From Gemmatimonadota bacterium (lineage in GTDB: Bacteria > Gemmatimonadota > Gemmatimonadetes > Longimicrobiales > Gaopeijiaceae): 64,000 bases of DNA. How positions within the stretch are numbered: position 1 is the stretch's first letter; each line of letters starts with the position of its first letter. The stretch spans positions 1 to 64,000 of the forward strand of contig JAPPGI010000218.1 of NCBI GenBank assembly GCA_028874985.1. Direction: 5' to 3'. Made by a program: the position numbers and the translations under genes. Below, piece by piece: positions 37,171 to 62,324 of the stretch. The notes beneath the pieces are model-generated. The model made no database searches. It saw nothing but the letters and a program-made list of their open reading frames with translations, and had not been told where the DNA came from.

Positions 37171-39603
37171 TCACCAGGTTCGCTTCACCGCAACCGACCA
37201 CTCGAACGGTCTTCCGTACACCTGCTCGATGTAGGCGGCGGCGGTCCCCCAGGCGGATGTCCCGGTCACGAGATAGCGTTCGTCCGTCAGGTTGCGGAAC
37301 GCGGACAACACCTCCCACCCGCCGTCCGCGCTCGCCAGGCCGACCGTGGCGTGGAGCAGGTGATACCCCTCCTGAAACAGCTGGGGCGTGTTGACGGGGT
37401 CGTGAAACTGCGACGCCGTGTACGTCCAGTGGAGCCGGGGGGTGACGGGCAGACCGCGGACGTCGAATGTCCTGCCGATCCGGAGCGAATGGTTGAAACG
37501 GGGTGTCTTGGTCAGCTTGTAGTCCGGCAGCACCGGGCTGTTCTTGCGCACGGCGTCGCTCAAGCTGTCGTACTCCGCGCTCAATACACCGACGCTGGCC
37601 GCGATGTCCCACCCGCCGGCCGGTATCCACGCCGCCTCCAGTTCGGCACCCTGGAGATCGGCCGACCCGCCGTTGACGGTGATGGGATTGATCGACTCGC
37701 GGATCACGACCTGCAGGTCCTCGTAGTCGGCCCGGAAGAGCGCCAGATTCAGCCTGAGACGACCATCGCCGGTACTCGACTTCAGGCCGATTTCGTAGCT
37801 GGCGACCGTTTCGGGCTCGTAGTCGGTCGGGGGGGCGTCGGGCGAATTCGGTTCGTAGCCGGGTGGGGGGGACGGAACCCGCGCGTCGAAGCCGCCGCTC
37901 TTGAATCCCTCGGCGAATCCGACGTAGGCGATCGTGTTGTCGTTCAATCGATGGGCGAGGTTGGCCATCACGGTCAGCGCATCGAAATCCCTGGTGAACT
38001 CCTTGTTGGCGAGGATGCGGTCCCCGCGCTTCATCGGCCCGGTGGCGGCTCGGAAGATCCCCCTGGCCAGGGGCCACGTGGGTCCGTGGATGCTTCCCCT
38101 GCCCTGCGATGCGTCACCCACCGCGTGGACATCCGGCGTCACGGCCTTCCAGTCCCTCGTGTAGCGTGCGCCGACCGTCAGCGAAACCGCCTCCGTCACG
38201 TCGGCCGTGGCCTGGGCGAACCCGGCCATCGACGAGTTGACCAGGTCCCAGTTGCTGTCGAACGCCCCGGTCGGGAGCGTCACGGCGCCCAGATAGTACC
38301 CCGTTTCGCGCACGAGGTAGAGGCCGGTCTGCCAGTGTATGCGGTCGTCGAGGCCGAAGCCGCTCAACTGCAACTCCTGGCTGAGCTGCTCGGATTCGAC
38401 CGTGATCTGGATCTGCAGGATGTTGGCGGGCGTGTTGTCCGCGTCCCGGGAGCTCCGCATGTCCAGTCCCCGGTAGCCCGTGAGAGACCGGAGCGTGACG
38501 CCCCCGCCGAGCGACCAGGAGACCCTGGCGCCGGTGCCCCACGAGTCCAGGCTGTCGAATGCCGGAAAGGTGCCTTCCGAGATGTACTCTCCAGCGAAAC
38601 TGTCGGGCCCGTAGCAACCCTCGGCGCCTCCCGCGCCCTGCCCGGGCGGGGGGAAGGTCGGCGGCCCCATTGCGGGGAAGTTGGGGTTGATCGTGATCGC
38701 GGTGCAGCCGGGCAGCGCCGCGTTGCCGAACGTCCCGAAGGCCTGCTTGTCGTTCACGCCCCCGTTGACGGTGGGTGCCCCGTTCTCCCGCCTGCGGGAA
38801 TAGTCGGCCGTCGCAAGGACCTCGAAGGTCGCCGAGGGACGCCAGACGATCGCGCCGCGGGCCGCCTGTCCGTTGTCGTCGCCCATGTCGAGTTCGTCGT
38901 CGTGGATGCGCGTCACGTACCCGTTCCGCTTGCGCAGCCCCAGCGCCACGCCCCCGAACAGCCCGTCTCCCAGGGCACCGTTTGCGGACGCGGTCAGGTT
39001 TGTCATCCGGTCGTCGCCGAACTGTACGCGCATGCTTCTGCGCGCTTCGGCGTCCGGCCTCCTGGAGTGCACCGACACGGCTCCCCCGACCGCGTTGCGC
39101 CCGAAGAGCGTGCCCTGCGGTCCGCGCAGCACCTCGACGCGTTCCACGTCGATGAGGTCCATCACCGCTCCCACCGAGCGCGGCATGTATATCCCGTCGA
39201 CGTAGACCGCGACTCCGGGATCCGTCACCGGCAGGAAGTCACGCTGCCCCACGCCCCGGATGTAGAACTGTGCCGCGGACTTCGTGCCCGAGAGAGCGCC
39301 GGAGTGGTTGAAGTTGACGTTCGGCATGACCTGGCCGAGCCGATCGGTCGTTCCGACCTGGCCAATCTCCAGATCGCGGCCGGACAGGGCCGAAACCGCC
39401 AGCGGGACGCTCTGAAGGCGTTCCTCCCGGTTCCTGGCGGTCACGACCAGCGGTTGCAGCCTGACGACCGAGTCGGGTTCGGGTGGGGGATCCTGGGCCC
39501 GGGCGGGCGGCACGGCGACGGATGCTGCAGCCGCCGCGATCCCGGCGACGGGGAGCCCGCGGATGAATCCGCGCGAGCACCGAGAGCGTGCGGGCCTGTC
39601 CAC
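37171..39603 (-). CDS. TonB-dependent receptor (iron-complex receptor type)
   Basis: This 810-residue outer-membrane receptor imports a small ligand using TonB energy. The signal peptide ends near PPARAQD. A TonB-box-like start and plug follow, with VVTARNREERLQSVPLAVSA, AVYVDGIYMPRSVGAVMDLI and VEVLRGPQGTLFGRNAVGGA. The barrel ends FEWSVAVKRTW. There is no carboxypeptidase-like domain, unlike the other two receptors here. The start is a GTG without a good ribosome binding site. The first 18 or so codons (RSRCSRGFIRGLP) are translated from a fragment of the dispersed repeat described separately. A DUF1330 gene ends six bases upstream, so the two are likely co-transcribed. Confidence 0.9.
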   Translation of the reverse strand: MDRPARSRCSRGFIRGLPVAGIAAAAASVAVPPARAQDPPPEPDSVVRLQPLVVTARNREERLQSVPLAVSALSGRDLEIGQVGTTDRLGQVMPNVNFNHSGALSGTKSAAQFYIRGVGQRDFLPVTDPGVAVYVDGIYMPRSVGAVMDLIDVERVEVLRGPQGTLFGRNAVGGAVSVHSRRPDAEARRSMRVQFGDDRMTNLTASANGALGDGLFGGVALGLRKRNGYVTRIHDDELDMGDDNGQAARGAIVWRPSATFEVLATADYSRRRENGAPTVNGGVNDKQAFGTFGNAALPGCTAITINPNFPAMGPPTFPPPGQGAGGAEGCYGPDSFAGEYISEGTFPAFDSLDSWGTGARVSWSLGGGVTLRSLTGYRGLDMRSSRDADNTPANILQIQITVESEQLSQELQLSGFGLDDRIHWQTGLYLVRETGYYLGAVTLPTGAFDSNWDLVNSSMAGFAQATADVTEAVSLTVGARYTRDWKAVTPDVHAVGDASQGRGSIHGPTWPLARGIFRAATGPMKRGDRILANKEFTRDFDALTVMANLAHRLNDNTIAYVGFAEGFKSGGFDARVPSPPPGYEPNSPDAPPTDYEPETVASYEIGLKSSTGDGRLRLNLALFRADYEDLQVVIRESINPITVNGGSADLQGAELEAAWIPAGGWDIAASVGVLSAEYDSLSDAVRKNSPVLPDYKLTKTPRFNHSLRIGRTFDVRGLPVTPRLHWTYTASQFHDPVNTPQLFQEGYHLLHATVGLASADGGWEVLSAFRNLTDERYLVTGTSAWGTAAAYIEQVYGRPFEWSVAVKRTW
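39552..39603. repeat. Repeat fragment forming the start of the TonB receptor gene
   Basis: The plus strand reads gagcccgcggatgaatccg followed by cgcgagcaccgagagcg. This matches the terminal segment of the dispersed repeat (compare 42377-42414 in reverse complement). It encodes the receptor signal-peptide n-region on the minus strand. Confidence 0.65.
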
Positions 39604-40045: not shown

Positions 40046-40291
40046 CAGTCCGTGGATAAAGCCCCGCGAGCACCGAGAGCGGCGAGGCGCCGGGCTGGCA
40101 AGGCGCGACGACAGGGGAATAGCAGCGCTATTCGCCCGAGGAGCAACGCAGAGCGTAGCCGTGGAGCTGCCGAATGTATGCTGTGATTGACAGAATGTAA
40201 TGTTGTCTTTACATCGTGAATGGGTGAAGCGTAGCGTCCAGCCCGGATGCATCGCCGTTCGAATGCCGGGGGGATTCTGTCCACGGGCTGC
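40046..40291 (+). repeat. Dispersed repeat, copy 1
   Basis: This is a near-complete copy (about 246 bases). Module A (40046 to about 40170) begins cagtccgtggataaagcccc and contains the hairpin GAATAGC-AGC-GCTATTC (40117-40133). An AT-rich middle shares about 40 bases with copy 2. Module B (about 40228-40291) carries cggatgcatcgcc and gaatgccggggggat. It fills most of the 406-base space between the DUF1330 gene and the NCS2 permease, and no other gene is seen there. Confidence 0.8.
40187..40215 (+). promoter_or_regulatory. Candidate promoter inside repeat copy 1
   Basis: A perfect TTGACA at 40187-40192, a 17-base spacer and TACATC at 40210-40215 lie in the AT-rich middle of the repeat, 89 bases before the permease start. 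The matching region of copy 2 keeps the spacer and TACGTT, but has ATCACA in place of TTGACA. Confidence 0.4.
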
Positions 40292-42128: not shown

Positions 42129-42414
42129 CAGTCCGTGGATAAGGCCCCGCGCGCACCGAGAGCGGCGAGGCGCCGGGCTGGCAAGGCGCGACGAGGGCTC
42201 AATAGCAGCGCTATTGGGCTGAGGAGCAACGCAGAGCGAAGCCTTGGAGCCAACAAATGTATACTACAGATCACATAATGTAATGTTGTCTTTACGTTGT
42301 GGGAAAGTGGGGCGAAGCGTCCAGGCCGGATGCATCGCCGGTCGAATGCCGGGGGGATCTTGTCCACGGGCTGCTAGCCGCTCCCGGTGCTCGCGGCGGT
42401 TCATCCACGGGCTC
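42129..42414 (+). repeat. Dispersed repeat, copy 2, with inverted ends
   Basis: This is the longest copy (about 286 bases). The left end cagtccgtggataaggcccc is matched by an imperfect inverted copy at 42377-42414. The internal hairpin is CAATAGC-AGC-GCTATTG (42200-42216). Modules A and B and the AT-rich middle are as in copy 1. The right end lies within the start of the TRAP binding-protein gene. Confidence 0.8.
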
Positions 42415-43392
42415 CTCGCCCTCGCGGCCGGATTGCCGTCCGCGTCCGGATGCCGGCCGGCGCCCGACACCAGAGAGCTGTCGCTGGCGCACTTCCTGTC
42501 GGCGGATCACGCCCTGAACGAGGCGATGTTCACGCCGCTGGCCCAGGACCTCTCGGAGCTCTCGGGCGGCAGGTTGACCGTCAGGCAGTTTCCCGCGGGG
42601 GCACTCAACTCGTCCGCGCCGGCCCAGTATTCGATGCTGCTCGGCGGCGTGGCCGATATCGCCCTTGCCGTCCCGGCCTACACCGCCGACCTCTTTCCGA
42701 AGACCGACCTGATCGCCTACCCGGGCGTCTGCAAGACGGCGAGGGAATGCACCGAGGCCATCCGGCGTGCCCGGCCGGTGCTGGAGCCGGAGTACGAGGC
42801 CAGGGTCCTGGCGATCTGGGCCAACGACGCCCCGGTGCTGCTGACCCGAGACAGACCGGTGCGCACGCTCGAAGACATGCGCGGACTCAAGATCCGCGTC
42901 TCGACCCGGAGCGCCATCCCGTTCATCGAAGCGCTCGGTGCAAGCGCGGTCATGCAGCCCGGTACGGTTGTCCACCAGAGCCTCACGACCGGGGTCATCG
43001 ACGGGGTCGCCATCTCCCCTTCGGGGATCGTCGCGTTCCAGCTCCACGAGCCGGCCTCCTACCTGACCACCTGGCTTCCCTTGTCCGGGCTCCCGTTCGT
43101 CCTGCTGATGAACCAGGGGGTATACGATGCCCTTTCTTCGAAGGAGCAGGGTTGGATCGACGAAGTTGCCGATGACTCCCTGTCCCTGGCCGGGGCCGCG
43201 GCATGGGCGCGAGCGGCAGCCGAGGGCCTGCGGATGGCCGTGGAGGCGGGTGTCGAGATCATCGATCTTGCGGAAAGCGAAAAGAGCCGGTTCGAACTGG
43301 CTGCCGCCTCTCTCCGTGAAGCAGGGCTTGCGCGCCAGGCGGGCGACATGACCGTCGGCGAGGTCATCCGCCTGTTCAGCGGGGCACGGTGA
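42346..43392 (+). CDS. TRAP transporter solute-binding protein (DctP family)
   Basis: This 348-residue protein captures a carboxylate-type solute for the TRAP permease encoded downstream. The lipobox-like end of the signal is ASGC (Cys near residue 36). The mature part follows the DctP fold: LSLAHFLSADHALNEAMFTP, VRQFPAGALNSSAPAQYSML, the conserved-arginine region GLKIRVSTRSAIPFIEALGA, and QSLTTGVIDGVAIS. The N-terminal signal region (SRSRCSRRFIHGLL) is translated from the right end of repeat copy 2. The start is uncertain: ATGs at 42244, 42286 and 42346 all lie in repeat sequence. I chose 42346 as giving the most ordinary signal-peptide length. The ligand is not predictable. Confidence 0.88.
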   Translation: MPGGSCPRAASRSRCSRRFIHGLLALAAGLPSASGCRPAPDTRELSLAHFLSADHALNEAMFTPLAQDLSELSGGRLTVRQFPAGALNSSAPAQYSMLLGGVADIALAVPAYTADLFPKTDLIAYPGVCKTARECTEAIRRARPVLEPEYEARVLAIWANDAPVLLTRDRPVRTLEDMRGLKIRVSTRSAIPFIEALGASAVMQPGTVVHQSLTTGVIDGVAISPSGIVAFQLHEPASYLTTWLPLSGLPFVLLMNQGVYDALSSKEQGWIDEVADDSLSLAGAAAWARAAAEGLRMAVEAGVEIIDLAESEKSRFELAAASLREAGLARQAGDMTVGEVIRLFSGAR

Positions 43393-52646: not shown

Positions 52647-55600
52647 CTATCCCCGAACGAATCCGTCCGCAGCCGCATCGAAGGAGCTGCAGCGCCCGTT
52701 TGCGGAGAGCATTCCCGCCTCGTTCATGAAGTCCGTGATGTCGGCGGACACAACCGCGTGCACTCCGCCGACGAGAGCCGTTTCGACCTCACCACGCTGC
52801 AGGGCGCACACCGCCTGGTGAACCGCCGCCAGCGAAGAGGCGCACGCCAGGTCCACCGGCATGGCCGGGCCGTTGAGCCCCAGCGCGAAGGAGATCCGGC
52901 CCGCCGTCAGGCTGACGCTGCCGCCGAGGTATCCGAGCACCTGACCCGCCGCCAGAGCCAGGTCCTTGTAGTCCCCGTCTCCGACGCCGGTGAACACTCC
53001 CGTACGGCTGCCGCGCAGCGTCTCCGGATCGACGCCCGCGTCTTCGAGTGCGTGCCAGGTCGTTTCGAGCAGCAGCCGCTGCCTCGGATCCATCGACCGC
53101 GCTTCGATGGGAGGAATGCCGAAGAACCTGGCATCGAACTTGTCGAGGTCCTCAAGGTAGGCGCCCCGATTCCGAGCGCCGTCGGGGGCCTCGGGGTCCC
53201 CGTCCACGCCGTGCCACGGACCTGCGTCGCGCCGCCCGTCCGTGACCATGTCCACCCCGGCTTCGAGGAGGCGCCAATAGTCGTCGAGATCGGGGGCGCC
53301 GGGGAAGCGGCACGCCATGCCCACGATCGCGATGCCGTCGTCCCCGGGCCGCTCCGGTGGATCCGGCGCGGAAACCGGCTCGGGCTCCGTCCCTGGAACG
53401 GGCGCCGCGCCGTCCTCCTCGAGCTCCTCGGCCAGGTGGTCCGCCAGCGTCACTATGTCCGGGTAGTCGAAGACCAGGGTGTTGGGCGCGGTGTAGGTTC
53501 CCGCGAATGCGCGGTTGAGCCGGTTGCGCAGCTCGACGGCCATCAGCGAGTCCATGCCCAGGTCGAAGAAGCCCACGGTGGGGGCCGGCGGCGATGGCAG
53601 CCGCAGGACGGCCTGCACCTCGGCCTGGAGGAACGAAACCAGCACGTTCTCACGCTCCCCCGACGGAGCCTGCCCCAGCCGGGTCAGCACGTCCTGCGAC
53701 GAAGCCGCGGCCTCCGCCTCGGTCTCCGCGGTCGCTGCGAGCAGCTCCTCGAGCAGGGGCGGCCGCCGGTCCACGGCCTCTTCGAACACGGCCCAGTCCA
53801 TCGCCATCACCACGGCCGAGGTCGCGTCCTGGCGCACCAGCCGGTCGAATGCCCGAATGCCCTGCTGCGGTGTGAACCAGCGGCCTCCGAGCGCCGAGCG
53901 GCGCCGGTCGATGCGCTCGCGCTGCTCCGCCGCCTCGCCGATCTCCGACCAAGCCCCCCAGGCGATGGCCTGCCCGGCGAGTCCCAGTGCCCGCCGATGG
54001 CCGGCGAGCTGGTCTAGGAAGGCGTTGGCCGCGCCATGGTTCGTCTGCCCCGGGTTGCCCATCACCCCTACGCGGCTCGAGAAGAGGACGAACATGTCCA
54101 GGTCGCGGTCCAGCGTTGCGCGGTGAAGGTGCCACGCGCCGAGGATCTTCGGGGACAGGACCCGTTCGAACCGGTCCCAGCTCTGGTTGGTGAGCGCCCC
54201 GTCCGAAAGCACTCCCACGCTGTGAACGATGCCGCCGAGGGGAGGCAGATCGCGGTCGATGCGCTCCAGCATCCGGTCGATCCCGTCCGTGTCGGTGACG
54301 TCCGCCAATTCCACCTGAACGGTCACGCCGCGGTCACGCAACGCCCGGATCGTCTCTTCGGCTTCGGCGTCCGGGCCGCGACGTCCGTTCAGCACGATCG
54401 CCCCCGCCCCCCGCTCGGCCATCCACTCGGCCACGGCGCACCCGATCCCGCCGAGGCCGCCCGTCACGAGGTAGGTTCGGTCCCGCCGCAGCCGACCCAC
54501 GGTGATGGGCGGGGCCGAAACCACGATCTTGCCCAGGTGGCGCGCGGATCGCATGAAGCTGAGCGCGGTTCCGGCCTCGGCCAGCGGCCAGCGGCTGTGG
54601 ACGATGGGATCGAGTTCGCCGGTGGAGATGCGCGCCATGATGTCCCGCAGAACCCGCCCCGCCCACTCAGGGTCCGTCTTCTTCACCACGTCCAGCTCCA
54701 GGATGTGGTAGGGCACGTCGGGACGCGCCGCCGCCATCTCCTCGTAGCTCAGAATGTCCCTCCTGGCCATTTCCACGAACCGGCCGCCGGGTTTGAGACA
54801 GGCCAGGCTGGCGTCGATGAAGCCTTCGCTCGTCAGGCTGTTGAGCACCACGTCCACACCCTCGCCGTTCGTCGCCCGCATGATCTCTTCGCCGAAAGCC
54901 GTCGTGCGGCTGTCGAATATGTGCCTGACGCCCAGTGACCTGAGGTAGTCCTGCTTGGGCGCGCTCGCGGTGGCGAACACTTCGGCGCCCGCCGAGTGCA
55001 CCAGCTGGACCGCGGCGAGACCCACACCTCCCGCGGCGGCATGCACGAGTACGCGCTCGCCGGGTTCCAGACCCGTGAACTCGAAGGAGAGAGCCGCCGA
55101 CACGAACGCGCTCGGGATGGTAGCGAGCCCGGTTGCCGAGATCCCTCCGGGTGCGGGCGCGACCAGCTCCTCGTGCGTGACCATGTCCGGCCCGAACGCG
55201 CCGAATCCCATTCCGACCACGTGATCGCCGACGGAGACGTTGGACACCTCGGAGCCGACCTGGATGATGCGCCCGCACATCTCCCGGCCCAGCAGTCCCT
55301 CTTCGATGAATCCGAGAGACCGGAAAACGTCCCAGAAGTTCAGTCCGGCGGCCTCGACTTCGACGCGGACCTCGCGCGGCTCGAGGGCGGTCGCGGGAAG
55401 CTGATGCACGTACGGCCTGTCGAACACGCCGCCCCGGTCGGGGGCGAGCACCCACCCCGCTTCGTCGGGAAGAACCAGCCGCGGTGCCCCCTCTTCGGTT
55501 CGGACCAGGCGCGCCACCATGCGGCGGCCGCGACGGTACGCGATGTGATTCTCGAGGTCGGGGTACATCAGCTCGTTCGCGAGGTCCGGTGCGGGGGACA

Positions 55601-58600
55601 GAGGGGCGGGGTCGAGATCGAGCATCCCGGGCCCGAGGTGCGGGGCCTCGCGCTCCACGCCCTTGCCGAAGCCCCACAGCGCCGCGCCGGCCAGGTTGCC
55701 TCCGCGCTCGCGCTCCAGCACCTGCGCGCCGCTCGTCACGAACCACAGTCCCTTTTCGGGAGTCGCGCCCGCATCGCCCACGCCCTGAACCATGGCCAGG
55801 GCGCTCTCGCCCGCGCGCGTCACGTCCCGCCACATCTCCTCGGTGGTGGCCTCTTCCCCGGCACCGTCCAGAGCCACGAGGTGCACCACCCCGCGGAAGG
55901 GAACATCGGCCGGGAGGTCGTCGATGAGCGACCGCCACGACTCTCGCCGCCGCATCTCGACGGCGACGGCGGCCATGCCCGGAGCGGTCGCGTCCCGCCG
56001 TTCCGCGTCCGTTCCCTCCGGGCACGCCAGCACCACCGTCTGGTTGCGGGCCCGCAGGTCCCCGGCCAACCGCGCCGCCCGCCCGGCGGAGACACCGCTC
56101 GCCCCTCCCGCCACCACCCACGCCCCCGCGGGTTCGGTGACCTGCGCCGGCCCCTGCGCCACAATGACGCCCTTGTCGGGCACGGTGTCGGTGTCGGCCT
56201 CGTCCACGCCCAACACCTCCACCTCCTCGAAACCGGCGTTGCCCAGCGCCTGCCTCCATACCGCGGGGCTCGCGAGCGCGTGGCGGGGCCGGTAGTCGTC
56301 GGCGAACCTCCACCACCCGTCGAGCTGTCCGAAGGTCAGGTCCATCCACCCCAGGCCGCTGAGGTTCTCCAGCGCGACCAGCTGTCCGGAGGGCGCGAGG
56401 AGGCGGCGGCAGTGGTCCAGCGTCTCGTCCAGGGAGCGCGTGGCGTGCAGCACGTTGGACGCGATGATGAGGTCGTATCCGTGCAGGTCGAAGCCCTGCG
56501 CGACCGGGTCCTTCTCGATGTCGAGCGGCCGATACTCGATGCATCCGCCGCCGTCGCCGAAGCGCGCCTCGGCCTCCGCGAAGAAGCCGGCGGAGATGTC
56601 GGTGTACATGTAGTCGAACCCGCCGTCCGGGAGCACCGGAAGGATGGAAGCGGTCGCCGATCCGGTGCCGGCTCCCACCTCGATCACGCGCAGACGCCTT
56701 CCCCGGGGCAGAGTGTCGACCAGGGCGCGGACCGCCACCTCCAGCATGCGGTTCGCGGCCCGCGCGACCGGAGCCTTGAGGTAGAGATCGGCTGCGGTGG
56801 GCTCACCGCTGCTGAAGAGGAGGGTCAGGGGGTCTTCACGGCCGTGCAGGACTTCGGGCAGCGCGGCCGCCGACCGCCGGAACAGCCCGGTCTCGGTCCG
56901 GCCGTGCGCGTACCGACCGAGCATGACCGCGGCGTGCGCGTCCGGATCGGCGGGCAGATCCGGGGGCCACGGATCCCCGGATCCCAGTTCGACGACGAAG
57001 CTCCCGTCCGCTCTTTCGCGCAGCGCACCCGCTCGGGCCGCCATCTCCAGGATTCGCCTGAAGAGACGGCCGTGTTCGGCCAGGACGCCGAGTCGTTCCC
57101 TCAGCTCCCCGGAGTCGACGACCGCACCCGGGCTGCGTTCCCAGCCCAACCGGTCCAGCGTCCTGAGGGCGTAGGACCACGACCAGACCTCCAGATCCCG
57201 CAGCAGGGAGTTCCGGTCGTCATGGTCGACTCCCGCCTCGGCCAGGTACTCCGACCAGGTCCGCGCTCCGGCCTTCACCGTCACCGGAGCCGGGAAGAAG
57301 TCCGCGGCCGGCATGCCCTCGGCGAGCGCGCATTCCCGCCACACGACCTCATAGAGGAGGTCGCGGACACCTTCGCCGGCAGAGAGCAGCGAGGCGCGGG
57401 TCGCCCGTTTCACCGTGTACCCGCCGATGGTCCCGAGCAGCAGGCCGTCGGGATCGCAGATGCGCATTTCGCCGGTCAGGACCTCGGGAGGTTCGCCCGG
57501 CTGCGATTCCGCCTCGCGGGACGCGTCGCTCAAGCGTACGTGGCAGAACACCCGCCGCGGCAGCCGGCCGGTCGTGAGCGACAGCCGCTCCCAGCCGAAG
57601 GGCAGGAAGGTTGTTCCGCCATGGGGTCCGTCCAGGTCGCGAGCCGAGCCCATGACCTGGAAACACCCGTCCAGGACCAAGGGGTGGACGTCCAACCCGC
57701 TTCCCCCCGCCCCCTCGGGCAGGCTCACCTCGCCCAGCGCCTCGCCCGGACCGGACCAGAGGCCGCGCAAGGTCTGAAGGAACGGGCCCAGGCCGACGCC
57801 GGTTTCCGCGCGGGCGCGGTAGTAGCCCGCCACATCGGACGGGGAGAGCCTCGCCCTGAGCTCCCCCAGGTCTATTCGCCGGGCAGGATCGGGTGCCGTG
57901 CCGCCCGGCGGCAACCTGCCCTCCACATGCACCGTCCAGTCGCCGCCCGCCGTGCTGTAGATCCGGAAGCGCCTCGGCGGATCCGGGTCCGCCGGGTCCA
58001 CGACGAACTGGATCGTCCTGCCCTCGTCCCCGGCTTCGGCGCTCTTCGGGAATACCAGCGCGCTGTGCAGCTGCATGTCCTCCACGATCACCGGCCCGCC
58101 GCTCAGGAGGGCGGACGCCGAGGCGGCCATGGCTCCGTACAGCGCCCCGGGCACGACCACCTGGCCGAACACCCGGTGGTCTTCGAGCCACCGCGGGTCC
58201 GCCACGAAAATCTCCGACTCGAAGGCAACCTCGCCGCCCGCCGAGTCGTGGCGAAGACCGAGCAGCGGGTGCCCGGCGCCTCCGCGGCGGCGTTTCGGCG
58301 CTTCGAGCCAGTGGTGCGTCCGTTGGAATGCGTAGCCGGGCAGCGAGATCCGCCTGCGGGATTCCCCGGCGAAGAGGGCCTCGAAGCGGAGCGGGAGCCC
58401 CGCCTCATACGCGCCGGCGGCCGCGGCGGCGAAATCACCGCCGCCGCCTGCTCCGGCACCCTCTTCGGGCGGCCCGGCCAGCGTCGCCAGGACACGCGGG
58501 GCCGGCGTGCCGGAAGATTCCGGCCAGGCGGCGAGCGCCATGGGTACGAGCACCGAACGCGGGCCGATCTCGACGACCATGTCCACGCCGGAGTCGGCCA

Positions 58601-61121
58601 GGGTCCTGACTCCGCCGGCGAAGGAGACCTTCTCGCGGGCGTGCCGCCTCCAATAGGCCCCGTCCAGCCGCTGGCCGGACTCGACCGCGCGGCCCGTCAG
58701 GTTGCTGACGAAGGTCACGCCCGGTTGCCCGACGGCGACGCCGTCCAGGGAAGCCTCGAGGTCGTCCAGGATCGGGTCGGCCAGCGCACTGTGGAACGCC
58801 TTCGCCGTGTTGAGGCGCACCACGCGTACGCCCTCCGAAACGAAGCGCTCCGAGATCGCATCGATGCCCGCCACGCGGCCGCTCACCACCTGGTGGGTGC
58901 CGTTGTCCCCCGAAATGCTCACCGGGACTCCGGAAGACGCGGCGTTGAAGGCCTCGACCTCGGCTGCCACTCTGTCCGGCGGCGCAAACACCGCGGCCAT
59001 GGCTCCCGCTTCCATTCCGGACATCAGCTCCCCGCGCGCGCGCGCAAACCGCATTCCGTCCTCTAGGCTGAACACCCCCGCCGCCTGCGCCGCGGCGATC
59101 TCCCCGACGCTGTGGCCCAGCACCATGTCCGGGCGCACGCCCAGGCTGAACCAGAGCGCCGTCAGCGCACACTCCAGCGCGTAGAGGGCAGGTTGCTCCC
59201 AAGCCGTATCGCCAAGGTCACCCACCGCCCCGGCCCTTCCGAACATGACGTCGAGCAGGGAGGTTCCCCGCACCTCCCGGAACACCTCTTCGCAACGATC
59301 CAGCACCGCCCTTGCCACCGGCTCGCTCTCGTGGAGCGCACGGCCCATCCCGGCCCACCGGCTCCCCTGACCGGTGTACGCAAAGGCCACCCTGGACGAT
59401 GCCCGCACCGCCTCGCGGCCGGTCCCTTCGGCCACGGCCTCCAACCCCGCCCGCAGCGACCCGGCATCGCGAAACAGGACTCCGGCGCGGTGATCGAAGT
59501 GGCGCCGACCCACGCTCGCCGTCCACGCCGCGTCCGCAAGCGGCGACTCCGGCGGCGTCCCTCCGCCGGCGGCCTCGACCTCAAGTTCGTCGAGCCACGC
59601 CAGGTACCGGCCGGCCAACTCGCGCAGCGCGGAGCTCGACCTCGCCGACAAGGGCAGCAAGCGCCTGCCGCGGGGTTGGGCCGCATCCCCGGGCAACGGC
59701 ATGTCAGCCGCCCCGGGAGGCGGCGAAACGGCGACGGTTTGCGGGGCTCCCGCAGGTTTGGGACCACAGTCGGCACCGACGACCGTCGCGGCCGGCCGCG
59801 CCCCCCCCGGACCCACGTACTCCTCCACCACCGCGTGCGCGTTGGTGCCCGAAATGCCGAAGCAGTTGATCCCCGCGATGCGCGGTCTCCCCGTCCTGTC
59901 CGGCCACTCCATCGTGCTCGTGGTAACCCGGAGCGGCAGATTCTCCCATTCGATCGCGGGATTGGGGTCCCGAAAGTGCAGGTGCTTCGGAATCACCCCG
60001 CGCCGCACGGCCAACGCCGCCTTGATCAGGCTGACCACGCCCGCCGCCGATTCCAGATGACCGACGTTGGTCTTGACGGAACCGATCAGGAGCGGTCGGT
60101 CCGCCGTGCGGCCCCGGCAGTAGACGCCGGACACGGCGTCGATCTCGATGGGATCGCCCACCTCCGTGCCCGTACCGTGCGCCTCGACGTAGTCCACGTC
60201 CAGCGGATCGATCCCGGCGGCGGCAAGCGCGTCCACCATGACCTCTTCGAGCGCGGGGGTGTTGGGAACGGTAAGCCCCGCCCCGGTGCCTCCGTGGTTC
60301 ACCACAGAGCTCCGGATCACGGCCCAGATCCTGTCTCCGTCCCGCTCCGCCTCGCCGAGCCGCTTCAGGACGACGACCCCGCATCCCTCCGTGCGCACGT
60401 ACCCGTCCGCCGACGCGTCGAAGGTCTTGCACCGCCCGACGGGGGACAGCATCATCGCGTCGGCGCGCAGTTCGTAGATGCGGCCGTTGAGGATGGCCTG
60501 CACGCCGCCGGTGATCGCCAGGTCGGCCTTGCCCTGCTGCAGATCCGCCACCGCGTCGTTGATCGCCACCATCGCCGACGCGCAAGCGGCGTCCACCGCC
60601 TTGCACGGACCTCGCAGACCGAGGTTGAAGGACACCCGCCCGGCGGTGCCGTTCAGATTGGTGCCGCTGAGGGCGTAGAGGCAGGACGCGGCATCGGCGG
60701 GCTTTTCCGACTCCACGACCAGCATGCGGTACTCGTCGTTGCTGATCCCCATGTAGACGCCCGTACGGCTCTCCCTGAGCGTCTCGGGATCGATGCCGGC
60801 GTCTTCCAATGCCTGCCAGGAGACCTCCAGAGCCATCCTCTGCTGAGGGTCGAGCAGCTTGGCCTCGACCGGAGAGATCCGGAAGAACGACTCGTCGAAG
60901 TGTTCGATGTCGTCGACGAAGGCTCCGAAGCGGCACCCCTCGCCGTGATGGGACTCATCGCCGAAGAGCATCCCCCAACGCCCTTCGCTCGAACCCGCCA
61001 CCCGTTCGGTGACGGCGTCGCCCCCCTCCTCCAGGAGACGCCAAAAGGACTCGATGTCGTTGGCGCCGGGGAATCGGCACGCGATGCCCACGATCGCGAT
61101 GGGTTCTGAAGCACGGGACAT
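52647..61121 (-). CDS. Type I polyketide synthase KS-AT-DH-cMT-ER-KR-ACP-(KS, truncated)
   Basis: This 2824-residue protein builds a reduced, probably C-methylated acyl chain. Domains: KS 1-430 (DAACASA Cys near 177, EAHGTGT and KTNVGHLE intact); AT about 555-870 (GHSVGEIAAA near 670); DH about 935-1200 (LEDHRVFGQVVVPG His near 982, HPLVLDGCFQ Asp); C-methyltransferase about 1290-1640 (VIEVGAGTGSATASILP near 1480); ER about 1850-2150 (HAAAGGVGLAAVQL); KR about 2200-2410 (VTGGLGGIG, FVLFSSRVG; the Tyr position reads TNHGAANAF, so His replaces Tyr); ACP with DLGMDSLMA near 2525; then a second KS from about 2600 with DLACASSLAA. The second KS stops at FVRG before its RGEGCG motif. The ATG at 61121 has AAGGGGG five bases upstream. 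A hydrolase and an ACP lie upstream on the same strand. There is no thioesterase domain. Confidence 0.92.
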   Translation of the reverse strand: MSRASEPIAIVGIACRFPGANDIESFWRLLEEGGDAVTERVAGSSEGRWGMLFGDESHHGEGCRFGAFVDDIEHFDESFFRISPVEAKLLDPQQRMALEVSWQALEDAGIDPETLRESRTGVYMGISNDEYRMLVVESEKPADAASCLYALSGTNLNGTAGRVSFNLGLRGPCKAVDAACASAMVAINDAVADLQQGKADLAITGGVQAILNGRIYELRADAMMLSPVGRCKTFDASADGYVRTEGCGVVVLKRLGEAERDGDRIWAVIRSSVVNHGGTGAGLTVPNTPALEEVMVDALAAAGIDPLDVDYVEAHGTGTEVGDPIEIDAVSGVYCRGRTADRPLLIGSVKTNVGHLESAAGVVSLIKAALAVRRGVIPKHLHFRDPNPAIEWENLPLRVTTSTMEWPDRTGRPRIAGINCFGISGTNAHAVVEEYVGPGGARPAATVVGADCGPKPAGAPQTVAVSPPPGAADMPLPGDAAQPRGRRLLPLSARSSSALRELAGRYLAWLDELEVEAAGGGTPPESPLADAAWTASVGRRHFDHRAGVLFRDAGSLRAGLEAVAEGTGREAVRASSRVAFAYTGQGSRWAGMGRALHESEPVARAVLDRCEEVFREVRGTSLLDVMFGRAGAVGDLGDTAWEQPALYALECALTALWFSLGVRPDMVLGHSVGEIAAAQAAGVFSLEDGMRFARARGELMSGMEAGAMAAVFAPPDRVAAEVEAFNAASSGVPVSISGDNGTHQVVSGRVAGIDAISERFVSEGVRVVRLNTAKAFHSALADPILDDLEASLDGVAVGQPGVTFVSNLTGRAVESGQRLDGAYWRRHAREKVSFAGGVRTLADSGVDMVVEIGPRSVLVPMALAAWPESSGTPAPRVLATLAGPPEEGAGAGGGGDFAAAAAGAYEAGLPLRFEALFAGESRRRISLPGYAFQRTHHWLEAPKRRRGGAGHPLLGLRHDSAGGEVAFESEIFVADPRWLEDHRVFGQVVVPGALYGAMAASASALLSGGPVIVEDMQLHSALVFPKSAEAGDEGRTIQFVVDPADPDPPRRFRIYSTAGGDWTVHVEGRLPPGGTAPDPARRIDLGELRARLSPSDVAGYYRARAETGVGLGPFLQTLRGLWSGPGEALGEVSLPEGAGGSGLDVHPLVLDGCFQVMGSARDLDGPHGGTTFLPFGWERLSLTTGRLPRRVFCHVRLSDASREAESQPGEPPEVLTGEMRICDPDGLLLGTIGGYTVKRATRASLLSAGEGVRDLLYEVVWRECALAEGMPAADFFPAPVTVKAGARTWSEYLAEAGVDHDDRNSLLRDLEVWSWSYALRTLDRLGWERSPGAVVDSGELRERLGVLAEHGRLFRRILEMAARAGALRERADGSFVVELGSGDPWPPDLPADPDAHAAVMLGRYAHGRTETGLFRRSAAALPEVLHGREDPLTLLFSSGEPTAADLYLKAPVARAANRMLEVAVRALVDTLPRGRRLRVIEVGAGTGSATASILPVLPDGGFDYMYTDISAGFFAEAEARFGDGGGCIEYRPLDIEKDPVAQGFDLHGYDLIIASNVLHATRSLDETLDHCRRLLAPSGQLVALENLSGLGWMDLTFGQLDGWWRFADDYRPRHALASPAVWRQALGNAGFEEVEVLGVDEADTDTVPDKGVIVAQGPAQVTEPAGAWVVAGGASGVSAGRAARLAGDLRARNQTVVLACPEGTDAERRDATAPGMAAVAVEMRRRESWRSLIDDLPADVPFRGVVHLVALDGAGEEATTEEMWRDVTRAGESALAMVQGVGDAGATPEKGLWFVTSGAQVLERERGGNLAGAALWGFGKGVEREAPHLGPGMLDLDPAPLSPAPDLANELMYPDLENHIAYRRGRRMVARLVRTEEGAPRLVLPDEAGWVLAPDRGGVFDRPYVHQLPATALEPREVRVEVEAAGLNFWDVFRSLGFIEEGLLGREMCGRIIQVGSEVSNVSVGDHVVGMGFGAFGPDMVTHEELVAPAPGGISATGLATIPSAFVSAALSFEFTGLEPGERVLVHAAAGGVGLAAVQLVHSAGAEVFATASAPKQDYLRSLGVRHIFDSRTTAFGEEIMRATNGEGVDVVLNSLTSEGFIDASLACLKPGGRFVEMARRDILSYEEMAAARPDVPYHILELDVVKKTDPEWAGRVLRDIMARISTGELDPIVHSRWPLAEAGTALSFMRSARHLGKIVVSAPPITVGRLRRDRTYLVTGGLGGIGCAVAEWMAERGAGAIVLNGRRGPDAEAEETIRALRDRGVTVQVELADVTDTDGIDRMLERIDRDLPPLGGIVHSVGVLSDGALTNQSWDRFERVLSPKILGAWHLHRATLDRDLDMFVLFSSRVGVMGNPGQTNHGAANAFLDQLAGHRRALGLAGQAIAWGAWSEIGEAAEQRERIDRRRSALGGRWFTPQQGIRAFDRLVRQDATSAVVMAMDWAVFEEAVDRRPPLLEELLAATAETEAEAAASSQDVLTRLGQAPSGERENVLVSFLQAEVQAVLRLPSPPAPTVGFFDLGMDSLMAVELRNRLNRAFAGTYTAPNTLVFDYPDIVTLADHLAEELEEDGAAPVPGTEPEPVSAPDPPERPGDDGIAIVGMACRFPGAPDLDDYWRLLEAGVDMVTDGRRDAGPWHGVDGDPEAPDGARNRGAYLEDLDKFDARFFGIPPIEARSMDPRQRLLLETTWHALEDAGVDPETLRGSRTGVFTGVGDGDYKDLALAAGQVLGYLGGSVSLTAGRISFALGLNGPAMPVDLACASSLAAVHQAVCALQRGEVETALVGGVHAVVSADITDFMNEAGMLSANGRCSSFDAAADGFVRG

Positions 61122-61170
61122 GGAAACCCCCTTGTAAGGCCGCGTTCTGTCGCCAATGGAATAAAGCTGG

Positions 61171-62166
61171 TCAGTCAAGCGCGGCGGTCCAGGCCGGATG
61201 CACCGCCGGCCGAAAGGCGCGCGGTGGCCGTCCGGAGGGAACGGCGACCGCTACAGAACCCCGCAATGCCCCAGGAAAGCCCGCATCTCCCGCGCACACT
61301 CCTCCGGTTTCTCGACCTAGAAAGTGCGTCGTCTCGGGTACGAAGTCGTACTCGATGGCTACGACATGACTGAGGTCGAGGGTGGGCAGATAGGAGTACG
61401 GCACCGTGGGATCCGCTCCGATGACCTTCGTGGGACAGGGCAGGCCGGCGAAGTCCACCAGGCACGAATAGGTCCTGACGTACTGGGCGATCTGCGCTTC
61501 GTAGTCGCGGGGACAACGGAGTTCCCACCACCGGCCGTCGGCCGACTTCCGGAGCACGGTCCTGGCCATCAGTTCGCCAGCCCCGGGAACCGCCCGGATG
61601 AGGAGAGGCATGAACTTCAGGACGTCGGCGAAGTCCTCCCTCATGTGGAACCGCCGGGAGCGCGTGAGGACCATCCGCGCCGCTCTCTCGGTCGCCTCGT
61701 CGAACTCCCGATCGCCGATGCCGGGCTTGTGCACGGGAGGATCGAACAGAATGCACGCCGACAGCCGGTGCAGGGCGCGCGAACCGAGAGAAGGCGAGAC
61801 GAGGGCCGTGAGGGCCGACAGGGAGTGGAACACCCCGATGGTGGGCTTGTCCCCGTAGCTCTCGAGCACCGCCGCGACGACCTCGTCCTGATCCCGCACC
61901 AGGTTCGGGAAATTGTGGTCGCTTCGGGTCCCCACCGCATTCCACCCGTGGTTCCTCAGATCGTAGACAACCAGATCGAAGTCCCGGAGGAGAAGCGACC
62001 AGAAGGGGTAGTAGAAGTCGATCGCGAGCCCGTTGCCGTGGCAGAGCAGCAGCCGCGGGCCGGCGGCGTTGCCGTGGCGGCGGACGATCGTGACCGTGCC
62101 GTCGCCATGGCGTACCTCGCACACCGAGCGCGGTTCGGGCAACCGCCACACCGGCTCCGTGGTCAT
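61171..62166 (-). CDS. Alpha/beta hydrolase, possible PKS product-release enzyme (3' frameshift)
   Basis: The protein has an alpha/beta hydrolase core: the oxyanion strand LLLCHGNGLAIDFYYPFW, VVYDLRNHGWNAVG, a nucleophile elbow GVFHSLSALTALVS (Ser near residue 129) and a late His in PETTHFL. It could release or edit the polyketide, since the PKS has no thioesterase domain; this is inference from position. Near 61314-61318 one extra base shifts the frame. In the +1 frame the sequence continues VEKPEECAREMRAFLGHCGV and stops at 61251, a natural C-terminus. The annotated frame instead runs on to 61171 through a repeat fragment (PPRAFRPAVHPAWTAALD). The start is the ATG at 62166, next to repeat copy 3. 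Confidence 0.75.
   Translation of the reverse strand: MTTEPVWRLPEPRSVCEVRHGDGTVTIVRRHGNAAGPRLLLCHGNGLAIDFYYPFWSLLLRDFDLVVYDLRNHGWNAVGTRSDHNFPNLVRDQDEVVAAVLESYGDKPTIGVFHSLSALTALVSPSLGSRALHRLSACILFDPPVHKPGIGDREFDEATERAARMVLTRSRRFHMREDFADVLKFMPLLIRAVPGAGELMARTVLRKSADGRWWELRCPRDYEAQIAQYVRTYSCLVDFAGLPCPTKVIGADPTVPYSYLPTLDLSHVVAIEYDFVPETTHFLGRETGGVCAGDAGFPGALRGSVAVAVPSGRPPRAFRPAVHPAWTAALD
61187..61232. repeat. Module B fragment of the dispersed repeat
   Basis: The plus strand reads gtccaggccggatgcaccgc followed by cggccgaaaggcgcgcggtgg. The first part matches module B of copies 1 and 2 (gtccaggccggatgcatcgccggtcgaa) with a few changes. It lies between the hydrolase and PKS genes and is read into by the frameshifted hydrolase frame. 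Confidence 0.6.
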
Positions 62167-62174
62167 GCTGCTAC

Positions 62175-62294
62175 CAGTCCGTGGATAGAGCCCCGCGAGC
62201 ACCGAGAGCGGCGAGGCGCCGGGCTGGCAAGGCGCGACGAGGGGCCAATAGCAGCGCTATTGGGCTGAGGAGCAACGCAGAGCGCAGCCTTGGA
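62175..62294 (+). repeat. Dispersed repeat, copy 3 (module A only)
   Basis: This 120-base copy starts cagtccgtggatagagcccc and carries the hairpin CAATAGC-AGC-GCTATTG (62246-62262). The AT-rich middle and module B are absent here. It fills the space between the ACP and hydrolase genes of the polyketide locus. Confidence 0.8.
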
Positions 62295-62324
62295 AGTGTA
62301 AACTGCACCCCGTGCCGGCAGGGC

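Follow-up and report, generated by a model that had tools for sequence, protein, structure and literature searches.

The window, that is, the whole stretch of 64,000 nucleotides analysed here (contig JAPPGI010000218.1 of a Gemmatimonadota bacterium), carries three copies of a dispersed repeat. Copy 1 (40046..40290, plus strand) and copy 2 (42129..42373, plus strand) are complete long-form elements of 245 bp, and copy 3 (62175..62310, plus strand) consists of the left arm and core, with its 3′ part absent (model positions 1-136 of 245). They matched with E=9e-79, 2e-76 and 7e-39, respectively, a profile made from 11 copies of the source genome, which include copies 1 and 2 and do not include copy 3 or the fragments described below. 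The reversed window gave zero matches to the same profile. The sequence-only reading had placed three copies here, and their presence at these locations is far above chance. The extents have been redrawn: copies 1 and 2 are complete, copy 3 is truncated, and positions 42374..42414, earlier counted as the end of copy 2, form a separate, older solo left arm in inverse orientation (minus strand, E=0.003), inside which copy 2 lies.

Copies 1 and 2 are bounded by the terminal inverted repeats CAGYCCGTGGAYAA...TTRTCCACGGRCTG. In copy 1, whose ends read CAGTCCGTGGATAA and CTGTCCACGGGCTG, they occupy 40046..40059 (plus strand) and 40277..40290 (minus strand); in copy 2 they occupy 42129..42142 (plus) and 42360..42373 (minus). 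Allowing at most one mismatch, we counted 3 occurrences of ATAGCNNNGCTAT, where 0.18 would be expected. Both copies have the same orientation and flank a gene of xanthine/uracil-permease type. Two further fragments lie on the plus strand, a solo left arm at 39553..39602 (profile match 39554-39588, E=3e-4) and a right-arm fragment at 61171..61239 (profile match 61171-61227, E=4.5e-3). Both had been suggested earlier and were recovered by the profile; a third suggested fragment, at 48.54 kb, had no profile match and only 70-74% ungapped identity. The window also contains a large polyketide synthase gene (52647-61178) with ketoacyl synthase, acyltransferase, dehydratase, ketoreductase and methyltransferase domains.

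Each copy has a core, which in copy 1 runs as GCAAGGCGCGACGA, tip hairpin, GGAGCAACGCAG (40098..40151, plus strand; core model R1, 63.4 bits). The cores of copies 2 and 3 lie at 42181..42234 (68.0 bits) and 62227..62280 (68.8 bits), both on the plus strand. The tip stems are as first described: copy 1 has GAATAGC-AGC-GCTATTC, copies 2 and 3 have CAATAGC-AGC-GCTATTG. This central hairpin is, however, only the tip of a larger folded element.

How widespread is the element in the genome and phylum? A genome-wide search with core model R1 returned 40 cores in the source genome. The end motif had about 210 matches in this genome versus 19 for the reversed control. The core model found matches in 23 of 23 genomes of the genus and, across the phylum, in 77 of the 395 examined. 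The end motif is abundant across the genus and is not so in most related genera; one genome, G010, has more than 200 exact ends. Many copies are reduced to a solo arm or to a very short end-to-end remnant, and among 74 profile matches in 2.0 Mb, 28 were left only and 17 right only. In some copies, of about 170 bp, the right arm has lost its middle part. In G010 (C28) and at loci L150 and L076 the element stands in tandem arrays, with spacers of 2 nt in L150. Open frames traverse element copies and none was established as the element's own gene. The element is thus multi-copy, has terminal inverted repeats and has no plausible gene of its own.

Arms of the element also appear to enter coding sequences. 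In the window, the minus strand of 39553-39602 appears to encode the signal-peptide start of a TonB-dependent receptor gene (37171-39603), and in the stretch 42374-42450 the inverted solo arm 42374-42414 appears to do so for a DctP lipoprotein (SRSRCSRRFIHGLLALAAGLPSASGC). When a solo left arm is read in the outward direction, it can specify an n-region like PAPRRSRCSRGFIHGLL with a hydrophobic stretch behind it. With thresholds set after the examples had been viewed, both were passed by 7 of 65 left-only and 0 of 38 right-only arms; in complete copies, 2 of 27 left ends and 1 of 27 right ends did so. At six other loci (L222, L042, L020, L058, L217 and L244), arm fragments appear to encode signal-peptide starts of exported proteins. 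Perhaps the element serves in places as raw material for signal peptides.

Relatives from the same genus have colinear DNA around copies 1 and 2, which allows the insertion of these copies to be seen against empty sites. Two of them, G014 and G006, lack copy 1 exactly where the window carries it. Copy 2 is absent from G012 and G014, which retain the solo arm that copy 2 entered. Therefore the element is, or was, mobile, and it is non-coding and MITE-like. The bases adjoining the ends are mostly G at the left and C at the right, so these were counted as part of the inverted repeat. Outside the ends, a T(N)A duplication of 3 bp was found 9 times versus 1.8 expected from shuffling, most flank pairs being non-identical; the 2-bp form, which copy 2 fits, was found 17 times versus 11.5 expected, a marginal excess.

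The core is not confined to Gemmatimonadota. Among the matches listed for the exact core pattern in genome contigs were Acidobacteria, Eisenbacteria, Myxococcales, Binatia, Nitrospirae, Elusimicrobia, Omnitrophota, an actinobacterial bin, and beta-, gamma- and delta-labelled Proteobacteria. Metagenome bins, some possibly misbinned, make up a large part of these records; those of Pelomonas, Paucibacter and Denitromonas carry no bin label. Across phyla, many cores sit within palindromes of some 160 bp; the ends of these are lineage-specific and their flanks are often CTAG. These short forms have a core of 52-56 nt, and their palindrome ends lie 49-62 nt from it. The spacing between the core halves is 37-45, mostly 41-42. 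Invariance of the core letters in the alignments (A1 and A2) is partly built in, the loci having been fetched with the exact core pattern; arms, distances, pairing and flanks played no part in the choice of loci in that scan, yet 34 short forms were picked for their matching ends. Viral contigs had no match to the exact string GGCTGGCAAGGCGCGACGA or to the core pattern.

Models of structure show the whole element as one imperfect hairpin. In 25 aligned short-form elements two-sided changes were found at 35 of 41 pairs, and the covariation score was 0.633 against 0.199 in shuffled alignments (0 of 500). Pairing held in 88.9% of cells versus 33-43% in slid versions, a comparison that favours the structure predicted from the same alignment and in which the outermost pairs gain from the selection for matching ends. 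A structure-free check gave the same picture, with an element's own arms matching at 0.81 versus 0.59 when swapped between elements, and at 0.72 versus 0.58 in the inner arm part, which was not used in selection. Elements of the same layout with different end sequences thus occur in several phyla, and their pairing is maintained by two-sided changes.

The tip stem in Gemmatimonadota behaves likewise. In a varied set of 36 distinct cores, hand-chosen from 71 distinct sequences, 7 of 10 pairs have two-sided changes, and the covariation score was 0.251 versus 0.122 shuffled (0 of 500). The closing pair singled out in the sequence-only reading was G-C in 15 and C-G in 11 of the 36 cores; the counts for the full set of 71 agree, with 41 G-C and 19 C-G. 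Its proposal that this compensatory change reflects selection for structure is therefore supported, as further copies covary both at the tip and across phyla. Might the repeat instead be decayed debris, its hairpin arising merely from palindrome-correcting mutation? Template switching can match arms without selection, and solo arms and truncated copies are plentiful, as counted above. Nevertheless, conserved mismatches and a near-fixed arm length survive across phyla despite the divergence of the arms, and we regard this explanation as very improbable.

The two strands do not fold equally. On one of them, mismatches between the arms are mostly A.G, 139 versus 6 C.T, which makes it the better folder; the A.G excess includes loops inherited jointly by Acidobacteria and Gemmatimonadota, the counts not being independent events. 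G.T and A.C numbered 73 and 48. The folding energies of copy 2 are in accord, with -123.8 kcal/mol (z -6.9) for that strand and -91.1 kcal/mol (z -3.1) for the opposite one. In the core, GCGACGA stands opposite GAGGAGC, permitting two G.A/A.G steps. The mismatch asymmetry suggests that the better-folding strand takes up its fold as RNA or as single-stranded DNA. Some Elusimicrobia elements (L103, L108, L147, L180 and L084) contain an additional hairpin in which GAGGAGC and GCGACGA follow each other in reverse order.

It may be asked whether what is conserved is a structured RNA, with a regulatory role or a place in a ribonucleoprotein, that a MITE spreads. The covariation together with conserved non-canonical loops, the far better fold of one strand, and the excess of G.U over A.C (73 versus 48, p=0.03) would agree with this. 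On the other hand, Rfam has no family match for the repeat, and DNA can also form G.A-rich folds. Co-directional flanking genes mostly read the opposite strand, 33 versus 14, by crude gene calls and in non-independent copies. Moreover, the fold runs on into the terminal repeats, a continuity for which transposition by itself could select. A structured RNA therefore appears unlikely, though it deserves consideration.

Which enzyme could move the repeat? Long-range pairs of ends, in the loci sampled and in 2.0 Mb of genome G021, which was not an exhaustive set, included no coding element with matching ends. One pair, 2291 bp, encloses an open frame. A 1464-bp pair in locus L043 was considered as an autonomous element and rejected, as it encloses an ordinary-looking gene with no recognisable transposase, and end-like matches at a constant offset within one transposase gene were judged to be chance. 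A plasmid search with the end sequences of other lineages gave no parent element. Genes with DDE_Tnp_1 and rve domains are numerous in G021 and few or absent in the end-richest genomes, G010 and G014; G010 has 0 DDE_Tnp_1 matches and only 4 rve matches. In the source genome, which is 95% complete, DDE_3 (PF13358) had 0 matches, which does not agree with an IS630-type MITE. Y1_Tnp (PF01797) also had 0 matches there, and the suggestion in the sequence-only reading of a transposase of REP type (TnpA-REP) was not borne out.

The latter result bears on the possibility that the repeat is single-stranded DNA mobilised by an HUH enzyme of REP/RAYT type, which would read the folded core. The strand specificity of the fold is in line with this, and one CTAG flank could be an end of the element instead of a duplication. 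The 7+7 nt duplex GAGGAGC/GCGACGA is also present, in permuted order, in the widespread REP-like repeat TTGCGAGGAGCGAAGCGACGAAGCAA, which we found in 31 viral-contig stretches, mostly preceded by C/TGTCA. From its ends, this repeat may belong to the published CGTC families. However, Y1_Tnp was undetected in the source genome, and inverted-repeat ends with signs of a short duplication at the target are unexpected for HUH enzymes, which leaves such a mover quite unlikely.

Tyrosine recombinases have a different relation to the repeat. One family (PF00589 only) has 43 matches in the source genome, up to 45 in its congeners, and is present in 23 of 23 genomes of the genus. By inspection of 30 integrase loci (L190-L219), the sequence past the stop codon enters a left or right element half in 15, these loci being mostly the best-scoring copies and the fraction no genome-wide estimate. 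Other integrase copies adjoin tRNA genes or other sequence. On the complete chromosome of G021 a 5144-bp stretch with an integrase gene (2847465-2852609) interrupts an element, and each of the two joints carries CCGGGCTGGCA; therefore the island used the repeat as its integration site. Islands of this expanded integrase family thus insert in the core, and the element doubles as an integration site in the genus. At two loci of the same genus (L193 and L199), the element beside the island has other ends (AGTGTCCCGTCCCGGAAG) and the same inner arm, which suggests an exchange of ends.

The earlier hint of a tyrosine recombinase thus caught a real association, in which islands enter the repeat rather than demonstrably move it. 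An attC-like cassette mobilised by the integrase family itself might be imagined from the 43 matches and the islands entering the core, and from tandem arrays with 2-nt spacers (L150, L076). Yet the islands join at CCGGGCTGGCA within the core, away from the element ends, they are also located at tRNA genes and other sites, and the element extends to phyla beyond those where the integrase was examined. We consider this origin highly unlikely. Integron attC sites are likewise imperfect hairpins tied to tyrosine recombinases; the element differs from them in lacking GTTRRRY/RYYYAAC core sites (its ends are CAGYCCGTGGAYAA) and cassettes, and in that the integrase enters via the core.

The mover of the repeat is most likely a trans-acting transposase. 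On balance, we read the repeat as a probable MITE, a non-autonomous mobile DNA element moved in this way, whose folded core is widely conserved. A transposase encoded elsewhere would recognise the lineage-specific ends, and insertion would take place at CTAG-like sites, generating the short T(N)A duplication. The core would be retained since the GCGACGA/GAGGAGC strand must fold with consecutive G.A pairs, and the folding strand may work as DNA in mobilisation or replication, or as RNA.

With MITEs the element shares short length, multiple copies, the absence of a coding gene, terminal inverted repeats and insertion against an empty site. It differs from those described in its full-length fold, near-fixed geometry and one core across phyla under unlike ends. 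A close comparison may be drawn with MITEPsy1 of Pseudomonas syringae, which duplicates 4 nt, has ends almost the same as those of ISPsy2 and is restricted in its distribution (PMC3189936). Both are short and non-coding, have terminal inverted repeats and CTAG among their targets, and MITEPsy1 is trans-mobilised in its model (PMC3189936). In contrast, the present element folds as a whole, has one core in many phyla with different ends, and no parent turned up for it in the DNA searched.

The CGTC-tagged REPs and the GTAG REPs of REP/RAYT systems are 20-40 bp long, carry a tag at one end and lack terminal inverted repeats (PMC3733652). They resemble the element in being palindromic, dispersed and present in several phyla, and CGTC REPs are likewise without a known transposase (PMC3733652). 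A REPtron is a poor fit, as the source genome yielded no Y1 (HUH) transposase and the 245-bp element has inverted-repeat ends instead of an unpaired GTAG or CGTC tag. ERIC, YPAL, NEMIS and RUP are also small, dispersed, non-coding, gene-adjacent repeats, some of them palindromic (PMC3733652). The literature available under open licence contained no description of the repeat family or its core strings, and a description elsewhere is possible. To our knowledge, ERIC, YPAL, NEMIS and RUP occupy narrower host groups than the element.

A broader proposal, which we put forward only tentatively, is that these elements form a new superfamily of palindromic mobile elements over many phyla. Their ends would be exchanged or diverge with the transposase of each lineage, while the G.A-pair core would be read as a folded single strand by some factor, the duplex being common, in permuted order, to REP-like repeats, for which no transposase is known either.

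Ordinary MITEs have conserved ends and a drifting middle. Here it is the ends that vary from phylum to phylum and the middle that persists, a pattern that would indicate a cis-acting folded core outside the present models of MITE mobility. The core offers a concrete sequence with which to seek the factor that mobilises or binds palindromic repeats, and in this genus integrase islands of a large family use a dispersed repeat as a landing site.
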